Part shown: one piece after another, positions 6,118 through 11,896 of the stretch
Position numbering within the stretch: position 1 is the stretch's first letter
How the letters are laid out: the number at the start of each line of letters is the position of its first letter
Source of the DNA: Schizosaccharomyces osmophilus
Lineage: Eukaryota; Ascomycota; Schizosaccharomycetes; Schizosaccharomycetales; Schizosaccharomycetaceae
NCBI RefSeq assembly: GCF_027921745.1
Contig: NC_079238.1
Location: 4,960,001-5,024,000, forward strand
Length of the DNA: 64,000 nt
Direction of reading: 5' to 3'
Notes under the pieces: model-generated
What the model was told of the DNA's origin: nothing
The model's database searches: none
What the model saw: the letters and a program-made list of their open reading frames with translations, nothing else
Position numbers and translations under genes: made by a program

Positions 6118-7308
6118 ATGTCTTCCGAGAATGAGAAATCTGTTGGATTACAAGAACAAAATCTTCAAGACGTTTCCTTCAAGTCTGAGAGTCATGAATC
6201 TATAGAAAAGTTCATCACTCAAGGAAACATGGCCTACGCACAAAAAGACTACGAGTCGGCAGTCGAAAAATACAGCCAGGCTTTGATTGAATCTGAAAAT
6301 AATTATGGTTCTGATAGTCTTGAAAATCGGAATATCCTATGGTTGTATGGAAAGGCACTTTTCCAAGTTGCTGTAGCAAATAGTCAAGTCTTAGGAAATG
6401 CTGTAGATCCAGAAGAGGGCGCAGAAGGAGAGGAAGAAGAGCAAGCAGAGCCCATTGGCTCCTTTTCTTTCACTGGCCAAAAGATAGAAAACCGTTATGC
6501 TGCCCCTGCAACAAATGAACAAGCAGACGGTTCAGCACAAGATAAAAAGGAAGAAGAAGAAGGACAAGAAGAGCAAGAGCAAGATGAAGATGACTTTAGT
6601 GTTGCTTGGGAAGTTTTAGATTTAACTCGGGTTATGCAAACCAATGCTATAGAAAAACACCCGGAGTCGTCAGATGAAAAGTTACGTCTTGCGGATGTTT
6701 TGGACCTACTCGGTGAGTTATCCTTAGAAATTGAAAATTTTGCACAGGCCTCTGAGGATTTGCAATCTGCTCTTCATTGGAAGGAGCAGGTTTACAAAGA
6801 AGGAAATACTTTGCTTAGCGAGGCCCATTATAAATTAGCTTTGGCTCTTGAATTTGCAAATCCAAGCGATCCTTCCACAAAGGATCGCGCCCGCGAGCAT
6901 GTTGAAACGGCAGCTAATATTTTACGGGATATTCTCGAAAAACGAAAATTAAAAGAACAGGAAAAGAAAGGGAAGGAAAGGGAAGGAATAGAGGAAATTG
7001 TCGGGTCAACAATTGATGATTTGCAAGAAATGTTGGGTGAACTGGAGCAGAAAGCTTACGATTTGAAACATGGTGCACCTTCTCTAGAGGAGGCTGTAGC
7101 TTCTAAGATGCACGAATCTTCTCTTCTTTCCGGAAAAGATGGAAATTTGGCTTCCGCTGTGGCAGACGCATTGCAGAATGCAAATGACTTGGGAGGAGTC
7201 GTCAAACGCAAACGACCCAAGCAAGAATCTCAAGCCACGCAACAAGAGGATCAGAACAAAAAGCCAAAATCAGAACCAGAATCTGATGAAAGGCAGGATC
7301 CAAAATAA
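6118..7308 (+). CDS. sim3: CENP-A/histone H3 chaperone Sim3 (NASP family)
   Basis: Single exon, 396 residues. NASP-type architecture: a first TPR (about 30-63, GNMAYAQKDYESAVEKYSQA) is interrupted by a long acidic Glu/Asp-rich segment (about 98-160). Two further TPRs follow (about 190-224 and 233-268), then a coiled segment, and then the conserved LGGVVKRKRPK element (358-368), which also serves as a nuclear localisation signal. NASP proteins use the TPR groove and acidic insert to bind histone H3; in fission yeast Sim3 delivers the centromeric variant Cnp1 to chromatin. Tandem with the antizyme gene downstream. Position matches S. pombe SPBC577.15c. Confidence 0.93.
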   Translation: MSSENEKSVGLQEQNLQDVSFKSESHESIEKFITQGNMAYAQKDYESAVEKYSQALIESENNYGSDSLENRNILWLYGKALFQVAVANSQVLGNAVDPEEGAEGEEEEQAEPIGSFSFTGQKIENRYAAPATNEQADGSAQDKKEEEEGQEEQEQDEDDFSVAWEVLDLTRVMQTNAIEKHPESSDEKLRLADVLDLLGELSLEIENFAQASEDLQSALHWKEQVYKEGNTLLSEAHYKLALALEFANPSDPSTKDRAREHVETAANILRDILEKRKLKEQEKKGKEREGIEEIVGSTIDDLQEMLGELEQKAYDLKHGAPSLEEAVASKMHESSLLSGKDGNLASAVADALQNANDLGGVVKRKRPKQESQATQQEDQNKKPKSEPESDERQDPK

Positions 7309-7782
7309 AATCTTGAAACTATGAGCAAACGGAAACTCTTTGCTTTACACACCTTCGTCTTCTGAATTTTGCCCAGTGTATTCCAAGGGGCAATTAAATT
7401 ACATGTGCTTACATGAATGATGAATGATATCTTTCAATGCCTTTCTCTTGCTTGTTTCCATTTAACCGCTGTAGTTTGTAGAGAATGTTGTATATCATAC
7501 TGAGGGTTTCTGTTATCATATTATCATTGACTACATTATCTTTTGATCCTTCGCAAAAGATTAAGTCTCACTGAATTTTCTAAGACTCATTCTAGTTTAC
7601 TGAAATTTATCTAATGTACTGTATTCCATTTAGGAATAGTTTGCGCACCTTCGTTAATTTATTACTACAGACAAGTTCAGGATTTTAACCACAGCCAGCG
7701 ACTCGAAGGATTATTTGATAATACTTTTCTACTTTACTTAGTTTGACAGTTCATACGTCGAATCTTTTAAAAAGGATAGAGA
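7309..7782. other. Spacer: sim3 3' region and antizyme promoter/leader
   Basis: About 470 bases, AT-rich, between two genes on the same strand. No open frame or RNA gene of note. Confidence 0.5.
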
Positions 7783-8559
7783 ATGGCGTTTAGAAATCCC
7801 ATGTACCAATTGTCCAATGTGGATGATATAGACAGCGAAGTTTTGAATTCGAGATTTTCATCAGAAGCCAAAGATGATGGATTGGCTCGCCGGCGTACAA
7901 CACTAGCTGTATGCGCTACGAAGAAAGATCTTTACATGTACGGCACGACCCCAGCTGGAGGGGCAGAATGGTGCTCCTGAGGTGCTTGAACGCTCAAGAC
8001 CTCGGATAGCTCACAAGCGTCAGAGGCGTCGCCATGTTCCGCGTTGGATTAGTGACAGTTTTCGAACGTGTTTGCCCAGCCCATCCGGCAAATGGAAGGA
8101 ACAGACGGCAAATGAAGGGGAGGGTCGTGTCAGAAATTCATGGCTTGCGGCCTGTGATGAGCGAATTGGTATCGCTGAACCAACGAATTACTGGCATGGA
8201 ATTATTCATACAGAAGACGATAACTCAAGAACGCTGTATCTGATACCGGAAACCTGGGAGGATGTTCACTTAAAAGAAGGGTAAAGCGGAGAAAATGTTG
8301 AAACGAGCTACTAACATGTGTTTAGATTTGTTGCTATTATTGATTTGGCAGCTGAGCGATTACGATGCACAAAACTAATTCTTTTCGTGGATAAAAATCT
8401 GTCTGCATTATGTACGTTTTCTTCCTTTCTTGCATTCCTGATCTTCATAAATACTAATTATCTTTAGCGTATCTTGTCAAAAGTCTACATTGGGTAGGTT
8501 TTGAACCCATTCCTCATTTGGATTGCGTTGATCATGTGCTTTTTGGAATGGAACTTTAG
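7783..8559 (+). CDS. spa1: Ornithine decarboxylase antizyme, +1 programmed frameshift, three exons
   Basis: The zero frame (65 codons) ends at TGA 7978-7980 in the context TGG TGC TCC TGA, the conserved antizyme shift site. Reading +1 from 7979 gives EVLERSRPRIAH and continues to 8280. Two introns follow: 8281-8325 (45 bp, CTAAC branch, TTTAG acceptor) and 8412-8467 (56 bp, CTAAT branch). The joined product (7783-7977, 7979-8280, 8326-8411, 8468-8559; about 224 residues) contains the antizyme core: LYLIPETWEDVHLKEG, then FVAIIDLAAERLRCTKLILF, then LHWVGFEPIP, which lines up with the vertebrate OAZ C-terminal domain. Antizyme binds ornithine decarboxylase, blocks it, sends it to the proteasome and restrains polyamine uptake; polyamines stimulate the frameshift, closing a feedback loop. 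Syntenic with S. pombe SPBC577.14c. Confidence 0.92.
7969..7981 (+). promoter_or_regulatory. Antizyme +1 ribosomal frameshift site
   Basis: TGG TGC TCC TGA G: the ribosome reads TCC, skips the T of the TGA and resumes at GAG. The UGC-UCC-UGA core is the same as in animal and S. pombe antizymes. The base after TGA is G here, where animal sites usually have U; this is a difference from the most-studied sites. Confidence 0.9.
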
Positions 8560-9095
8560 TATTTTTATGACTTGAATATTTTTGGCTGCATGTGGACGTC
8601 AATTATGTTCAAATTTAAACCGTATAAACTCGAAAACAGTAGATTGCCTGCTTTCTCCCCTCTTATATTATTTCAATCCGTGTAGTTTATGGTACCGAAT
8701 GTGTTGTCCTAATTTTCATTTTTTTTTCCTTTTCGATAAAGCCCATCCAAGGACACATTTCGCCAAAGATATATATATGTTGTGCCTTATTGTTTTCAAT
8801 GTCTTTATTTTCTACAAAGGTGAATTTCGTTACTAATTGTTATGTATACCGTCCTAATACGTTACCGCTCTTTTTAAATTTTGTTTTTAAATTCAATATT
8901 GTTTACATGTCGGTTAATATCATTTGTTAATTACTGGTATCTATATTACTGTTTTCTTTCTATTCTTAAAGGTTGCTTTCACCTTGTTCAATGAGTTATG
9001 TCATTTTTCTTGCTGGTCTCATTTCCAAAATTATAAATAATTATTACTCATTAAAAAAATACAAAATTTAGATAAAAAAAGTCATAACTGAGATA
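8560..9095. other. Convergent 3' spacer between antizyme and syj2
   Basis: Strongly AT-rich, with T-runs (8718-8731) and A/T-rich ends at 9030-9080. An 84-codon frame at 8582-8836 has no family resemblance. No RNA gene seen. Confidence 0.5.
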
Positions 9096-11896
9096 TCATG
9101 AAGCCTTACTCATAAAGTAAGCATTCCTAGCTTCTTTCATGATTTCACCTTCTTTGTCTTTGTTGGTTCTCACAGTGTGCAGTATGAAAGTTGATAAAGC
9201 AGGACGATGGTCTGAACAACGAACATCAACCGACGTGTATGTTGTCCTAGTAATCTAGATAATGTGTCAGTTTGCTTTCCTCCCCAATTCACAATCACTT
9301 ACATTCTTTGACGACAATATTCTATCAGTCCAGGACGGAACACGTTGTTTTTCCCTTTGAAGAATTAGTTTATCATCTCTTTTATTGGTCTTCCTTCTTC
9401 TATATCTTCTATATTCGTGAAACTTACGATGTATCATAGTCATTTGTGTTGTAGTCAAATTTGTAGGTCGGTTGAAAAGTAAGCTGACTTTCAATGAGAT
9501 TCATAAAAACGCGATTTTCATTCATTTCTTTCCGTAGCTGATCATACGAATACAGCTTACTCAAATCACCAACTTCGATCAGTTTTCGAACTTCGTCATT
9601 GTCCGCATCAATGCGATAATTAAAATCACCCAGCCAAATAATATTGCTAAATTCCTCATTAGTTGCTTTAATTTAAATAACAAAAAAGGTACCTGTGATC
9701 ATAGATCTTCATGCCAGACGAAAATACCAGTCCATCTGCAATTGATGCGTATTCCATATTTCGCTCGTTAATATTGTTAGTCTTCGGTGCGAAATGGGAA
9801 GATACAAAGCAAATGTCGGTATCAAAAAAGTTTAACTCGATCGCTACTGCTCCTTTATTTGCTGTGAATCCTCCAAAACCGGTTTTACGGGTAGCTTTCG
9901 AAACTTTCGAGATGGCATTCAGCCGGTCTTCCCGGACAATAACTGTAAGGAAAACACCCGTCAACTGAGCAGAGCTAATCAAAACATATTTATTATGAGA
10001 ATTGGAATTCAGCGTTTGCAAAATTTTTTCTTCCCATAGCTTCATTTTTTGTGAGCTTGTATTCACAAGATGGCCGATAGTTAAGTTAACGAGTTCTTGA
10101 ATACCTAGAACATATAAATCAAATGCTGGTGTTTGTTCACCATACGGTAAAAGCCACTTTTCAAATTCTTCCGTGGAAGGGATTTTGCCGTTTGTATTAA
10201 ATGTTGTGGTGTAGATTGAGCATTCATTGTGGGTAACATATTCATCATGGCGCTGATATAAAACCCCTTGAACGTAAGAAGACACTGAGTCAGCTATTAA
10301 AACAGACTTTTGCCCTACAAAGGCGCCAAGAAGGTATAGTATAGTATTTTGAGTCTCCTCATCCGGAAACCTTCCAAAATACATTCGGCCAAATGTCTTC
10401 GTCAAATCGCTTAAGGATCCAGAGAATGAAGAATACCCTCTTCGAGAAATACTTGAACCAATGGATCCAACTCCAGTCACCAACTTGGCAATTACATCCC
10501 CATTGTTGGACCAAAGATGGCCATGCAATTCACGGATTCCATCGGAAAGCTCGGTGTTTACAGAGCTGAACAAATCCTTCAGGATTGTTTCCGAAATCTT
10601 CCACTGAGCTAGGTTCGTTCGTCCAAGGCAATCAATATCATTTGTGCGAATTACACCATTTTGAACGCAGGAAGGAGTATCTGAATCGAAGTTTTGAATG
10701 TGAAAAGACATATCCTTGAGTGTATCTTGCACAAATCTTATAAAACTAGCTTCAAAATTTGACTTGCTTGTATCCAATGAATAATGAAATTGCTTTGTAA
10801 CAACAGGGAAAGGAAGCAGTATCAAATGATGCTTAAAAGCTTCTTTTAATGGACCCTCAACCTTGCCATCATCTAAAAGATCCAAAACATAAATTTTTTT
10901 GTAAGCTCTTTGCAGCTTAACGAAGTGACGATTAAAAGGACCTTGGCTTGCTTTCTCAGAAGTCGTGAACGACACGTTAGGGCCATACCAAGACGAATAC
11001 TCTTGTTCCCAAAAACAAGGGACAGTCCCGCGGATCTGTAAAAAGCTAGCAAGTTTCTTATTCGCTTGGACGACAAACTCAGTTTCCACAAATAGCGAAC
11101 AGAAAGCGTCATCATCTAAACCAGACGGAGGATACGTTTGTTTGGAGCCGTAACTACTGAGTTTCGAAATGATGGCCATTGCGAAAATGCTATTATCGTA
11201 GGATTCAACATAGCCACGAAAGCAACGTAGCAATAATGAGGGAAGTCTTTCATTTATGTGGGTTTCGTCAAAATGCGTAGCGAATTCTCGAATCATGAAT
11301 TGATTCCAGCAATAAATCTCCCAAGACGAAGTCGGCGTGTTTGGATCTAATTTGGTAAAACAGCAAATGTCAGTGGATGCATAGAAAGTGCCATCCGTGA
11401 GCAACTCACCTAAATTGGTTAACGGATGATACTCAGTTACCTTCGAAGAGCTTATGAAATTTTTGTCCCCCAACGTTGGATTGGAATCGTTTTGAATTAA
11501 CGAAGAGTATAATTGCTGTATTCCGTCGGAATCACGACCAAACTTGCCATCGTCCCAAGTATCTTGATCTAAAGAAACGAATTCAACAGACTGTATCTGA
11601 AAAGTTGGCTCTTTCGTTCCCATTTGGAGCGCTAGCTTCGCTGATCGAACAATACATACGAAAACGCTTCCATTACCGTTCCCAAAAGAGTGATAGAAGG
11701 CTCCTAATATACCAATAACTGGTCTTCCTCCATTTAAAGGTTCAAAGCCTGACAATTCTTCAAACTCTCTATGAGAAATAATACTCAAAGTAATCAACGC
11801 TTCTGAAGAACCATTGAGTGGTTTTTGCAGTATAGCTACCCAACCATTAGTAACAAAAGCTAAAGATCTTTCATGTTTTCTTATATAGCTAAACAT
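9096..11896 (-). CDS. syj2: Synaptojanin-like inositol polyphosphate 5-phosphatase with inactive SAC domain
   Basis: Four exons: 11896-9693, 9646-9428, 9354-9303 and 9254-9096, separated by 46, 73 and 48 bp introns; 877 residues. The N-terminal half is a SAC domain. Its active-site loop reads [12 protein letters not shown] (about 417-428) where active SAC enzymes have RxNCxDCLDRTN: the nucleophilic Cys is Asp420, so this domain should be dead, as in budding yeast Inp51. The C-terminal 5-phosphatase (about 560-860) keeps every signature: [46 protein letters not shown] and CSDHRPALS; several of these are reached only by joining the exons. It should remove the 5-phosphate from PI(4,5)P2 at the plasma membrane. 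Syntenic with S. pombe SPBC577.13. Confidence 0.92.

Follow-up and report, generated by a model that had tools for sequence, protein, structure and literature searches.

The 64,000-nt stretch of Schizosaccharomyces osmophilus DNA analysed here (the window, numbered from its first letter) contains the ornithine decarboxylase (ODC) antizyme gene spa1 at 7783-8559 on the + strand. We consider it close to certain that this locus is spa1, with a transcript that would lose two introns, a polyamine-dependent +1 shift at a UCC codon and a product that would target ODC. The gene anatomy, the family membership, the predicted antizyme fold of close relatives and the presence of an ODC gene are established directly, while the frameshift event, its response to polyamines and the degradation of ODC would carry over from the orthologues. 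The gene is deposited at NCBI as P0001, Spa1 'with +1 programmed ribosomal frameshift'. The locus is already known, and the deposited protein is mis-annotated at the junction. Antizyme frameshifting itself is textbook knowledge from yeast to mammals (PMC5009743), and spa1 of S. osmophilus is one more, already named case of this classic frameshift-regulated gene.

Overlapping reading frames, relatives and introns

Two overlapping open reading frames (ORFs), with ORF1 ending in UCC_UGA and ORF2 in the +1 frame, form the layout of antizyme-type frameshifting. ORF1 (7783-7980, +) starts at the ATG at 7783 and runs for 65 codons to the TGA at 7978-7980. The first-pass annotation, made from the DNA letters, had the zero frame stop at TGG TGC TCC TGA (7969-7980, +), which is exact to the base. 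At this putative shift site the P-site codon is TCC (7975-7977) and the first +1 codon is GAG (7979-7981). ORF2 lies in the +1 frame, which is open from 7907 and overlaps ORF1 by 74 nt; the sequence supports the need for a +1 shift, as had been argued. Its translated parts on the + strand are 7979-8280, 8326-8411 and 8468-8559, the last with the stop TAG at 8557-8559. A +1 shift at TCC, with both introns removed, gives a product of 224 residues ending at this TAG. The 12-mer of the shift site, TGGTGCTCCTGA, has one exact copy in the window; with up to two mismatches it occurs at 4 places, while 3.23 are expected, and the motif alone therefore proves nothing.

The spliced +1 product matches the Pfam family ODC_AZ over residues 138-209 (E 7.4e-12, 45.6 bits, cut-off 24.2). 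Together with P0001 and its relatives and the similarity of ORF1 to the S. japonicus antizyme (P0005, from UniRef), this bears out the antizyme identity proposed earlier. P0005 is 56% identical over the full length, with a divergent linker of different length. Against residues 1-60 of P0005, ORF1 alone reaches 49% identity (32 of 65 alignment columns), as far as the Ser preceding the UGA; this similarity and the Pfam match speak against a chance arrangement. S. pombe spa1 is an orthologue with the same P-A-G-G-A ahead of the shift, and the one S. pombe protein found (P0004), which lacks ORF1, aligns to 74% of the query at 72% identity. The S. pombe antizyme was the first fungal one to be cloned, and its deletion raises polyamine levels (PMC3432380).

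The deposited fission-yeast antizymes comprise six proteins (P0001-P0006), P0001 being this locus. A profile search for distant antizymes, in which 7,997 candidates were scored, returned the same six. The antizyme alignment, used as a profile against the PDB, retrieved only NKG2-D (E 0.0044), with no stretch passing alone; a single-sequence search listed rat antizyme at a weak E of 0.46. At the DNA level, the genome gave one match. Scanning this genome with PF02100 gave no match, not even at the spa1 locus, because exons were searched apart, so that this does not show absence of a second antizyme. One match was found for the ODC target, a 433-residue ORF with PF02784 and PF00278.

These observations fit a mechanism in which the spa1 transcript would lose two short introns and ribosomes would translate ORF1 up to UCC-UGA, where some would terminate. 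A polyamine-dependent fraction would shift +1 at UCC and continue in ORF2. The antizyme made in this way would bind ODC, block its dimerisation and send it to the proteasome, and removal of ODC would close the feedback loop on polyamines. Binding and degradation of ODC are expected here by analogy with S. pombe (PMC3432380).

The introns measure 45 and 56 nt, exactly as previously claimed. Intron 1 (8281-8325, +) reads GTAAAG...CTAAC...TAG, and the K(E/N)G(F/L)VAIIDLA segment of the relatives runs through it without a gap. Intron 2 (8412-8467, +) reads GTACGT...CTAAT...TAG, and the relatives are continuous across its position. Both introns end in TAG, with the CTAAC and CTAAT motifs finishing 10 and 9 nt before the respective ends. 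Without splicing, the +1 frame meets a stop directly past KEG. The donor of intron 1 is placed at GTAAAG because K(E/N)G-F/L-VAII is unbroken in the relatives; splice signals in fission yeast have been described as degenerate (PMC5728500). In a survey of 16 TACTAAY anchors, a GTRNG donor lies within 110 nt of 10 and a GTANGT donor of 6. Intron 2 belongs to the 6 GTANGT anchors, and intron 1 to the 6 anchors with neither donor type. Shuffled sequences give 5.94 anchors per strand, 0.8 of them with GTANGT; many anchors thus arise by chance, and no verdict on GTAAAG can be drawn from them. Retention of intron 1 would truncate the antizyme, and regulated or inefficient splicing at this position is conceivable.

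Both introns are located 3' of the ORF1 stop, and a coupling to nonsense-mediated decay (NMD) was considered. The splice junctions of the mRNA lie 300 and 386 nt downstream of the UGA. A preprint that compares three frameshift genes of S. cerevisiae reports significant NMD sensitivity for EST3 alone, and so not for OAZ1. On the 5' side, the region between the stop of the upstream gene and the antizyme ATG (7309-7782) contains nine ATGs, whose frames are 4 to 29 codons long; the last of these ATGs is at 7614. Depending on where transcription starts, upstream ORFs in the antizyme leader are possible.

Deposited proteins and the pseudo-intron

P0001 and the window product share 42 identical N-terminal and 159 identical C-terminal residues. 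Between these blocks P0001 has 17 wrong-frame residues, IFTCTARPQLEGQNGAP, where the product of the window has 23, the last three being WCS. With introns 1 and 2 taken out, single deletions of 1-159 nt were tried from starting points about 60-480 nt past the ATG; only that of 7909-7927 on the + strand, or the equivalent 7908-7926, which gives the same protein, reproduces P0001 exactly. Because the 19-nt stretch at 7909-7927 begins with GT and ends with AG, the Val-Cys codons GTATGC were probably mistaken for a donor by the gene finder, making this intron an artefact. The first-pass annotation had expected an automatic gene finder to break the gene into two or three. The deposited model instead keeps one gene, and its pseudo-intron leaves the zero frame before the UGA is reached; models from three other species circumvent the UGA as well.

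The true shift junction is present in one of the six deposited proteins. P0005 follows the zero frame of the window through GGAEWCS and continues with E, while P0001, P0002, P0003, P0004 and P0006 lack the junction or contain it in garbled form. P0003 departs from the zero frame after TTLA, as P0001 does, and rejoins at a different point; the shift region is missing from P0002 and P0006, with breakpoints that differ between the two. As judged from the protein sequences, the bypasses in P0001, P0002, P0003 and P0006 are likely splice joins. The +1 product is identical to P0005 at 129 of 232 positions, compared with 119 of 232 for P0001. Proteomic searches against the five proteins other than P0005 would miss the shift-junction peptide.

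Such errors have precedents. The failure of standard pipelines on antizymes was stated in 2008, together with a tool for spliced or intronless sequences (PMC2375905). A false intron in place of a +1 frameshift was recently reported for S. cerevisiae YJR112W-A (PMC12661321). The S. osmophilus genome itself was annotated with MAKER, supported by proteins of four other fission yeasts, with 29 nt as the minimum intron for read mapping, and the same paper describes a wrongly annotated retrotransposon intron, presumably owing to a programmed frameshift (PMC10085805). That paper contains no mention of antizyme or spa1. In the library of open-access papers searched, with subscription journals outside the scope, no paper contains 'osmophilus' and 'antizyme' together.

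Taken at face value, the deposited models imply that splicing bypasses the UGA of the zero frame, which would make a frameshift unnecessary. All four bypassing proteins skip the shift, and P0001 and P0003 share their exit after TTLA. With donors in 7786-7980, 63 GT-AG joins of 19-299 nt would restore a continuous frame; 62 of these are at least 29 nt long, and 11 use the donor GTATGC at 7909. However, each of the four models relies on a join of its own, and the pseudo-intron removes conserved zero-frame coding sequence. The P0001 join, at only 19 nt, falls under the 29-nt read-mapping minimum of the genome paper (PMC10085805). The CTRAY branch motif of both accepted introns is absent from all 63 joins, where a weaker branch site could still occur, and the sole CTRAY between 7786 and 8280 is at 8240. 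The left edge common to P0001 and P0003 may stem from the use of S. octosporus proteins in annotating S. osmophilus. Splicing around the UGA is, in our view, very improbable.

We attach equally little weight to a shift of -2 rather than +1 at UCC, which arrives in the same frame and would add a Pro (WCS-P-EVL). A mammalian antizyme cassette in S. cerevisiae shifted predominantly by -2, but in S. pombe the shift was mostly +1 in the same report (PMC5009743). Two frames, one of them broken by a stop, could also be read as a pseudogene or as a sequencing error with a one-base insertion. ORF2 is, however, intact and highly conserved, and the S. japonicus entry implies the same shift site and two conserved frames, leaving this explanation a negligible chance, smaller still than the other two.

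Several observations count against the frameshifting antizyme gene favoured here. In S. osmophilus, the frameshift and the splicing of spa1 are predictions from DNA and protein sequences. P0005 is an annotation that itself presumes the shift and so provides no experimental proof. The intron 1 donor GTAAAG (8281-8286) is atypical, without G at +5. The RNA downstream of the shift folds no better than shuffled sequences (z 0.23), and searching 7600-8600 against Rfam (E<=10) yielded no antizyme frameshift element, only three chance matches far under the cut-offs. Across five stretches up- and downstream of the shift, folding never exceeded that of shuffles (z -0.56 to 1.11). Folding and Rfam thus identify no 3' stimulator. 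Mammalian OAZ1, in contrast, has a conserved 3' pseudoknot (PMC9841425), with no counterpart detected here.

Shift-site context and a tentative core strand in ORF1

The base after the UGA is G, as the first-pass annotation noted, but a purine here is nothing unusual. In all three other species that can be read at this point (P0003, P0004 and P0005), the +1 frame opens with Glu, whose GAR codons put A or G behind the UGA; the residue is missing from P0002 and P0006, and P0001, from the same locus, was not counted. A published logo of 153 OAZ sequences has a single universal base at the shift site, the U of the stop codon (PMC2375905). S. cerevisiae OAZ1 likewise produces antizyme through +1 frameshifting at a UGA, although its site is GCG_UGA_C (PMC5009743).

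Downstream of the shift, the codons at 8024-8074 (+) specify a 17-residue run, RRRHVPRWISDSFRTCL, that is invariant in the protein alignment of five fission yeasts (the window, P0002, P0003, P0004 and P0005; P0001 and P0006 were excluded as duplicates). The run corresponds to residues 81-97, starts 43 nt past the UGA and is the longest in the protein, the next-longest being runs of 7 residues within the antizyme core. It could reflect an RNA signal in the coding region or a constraint on the protein, which protein sequences do not separate.

The predicted models of two relatives, P0005 and P0002, have the antizyme core fold. Both place a strand at AVC[AT] (residues 37-40 of P0005 and 42-45 of P0002) that is encoded before the shift, and the AVCA codons of ORF1 at 7906-7917 (+) tentatively correspond to this first core strand. 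Alignments of the models to human AZ1 (4zgy_B), of which the first and last aligned residues were considered, begin just ahead of the strand, at model residue 33 or 38 and chain residue 101. The strand has weaknesses: the pLDDT of the block is 53 and 43, both predictions derive from the same six sequences, and P0002 lacks the shift region. It is thus possible, though doubtful, that the first core strand of fission-yeast antizymes comes from ORF1, which would then be no disposable leader, and that the shift site occupies a long loop within the folded domain. In human antizyme the first core strand is encoded after the shift, whereas here it may be encoded before it. Were this the case, ribosomes terminating at the UGA would set free part of the core, gene models that bypass the shift site would remove real structure, and frameshifting would be connected with the folding of the product.

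Flanking genes

The upstream neighbour (6118-7308, +) encodes an SHNi-TPR protein similar to NASP/Sim3, and the downstream neighbour (9668-11896, -) a synaptojanin-like protein with SacI and inositol phosphatase domains. In S. pombe, the neighbours of spa1 are sim3 and a synaptojanin gene, which suggests that the synteny around spa1 is conserved between the two species.
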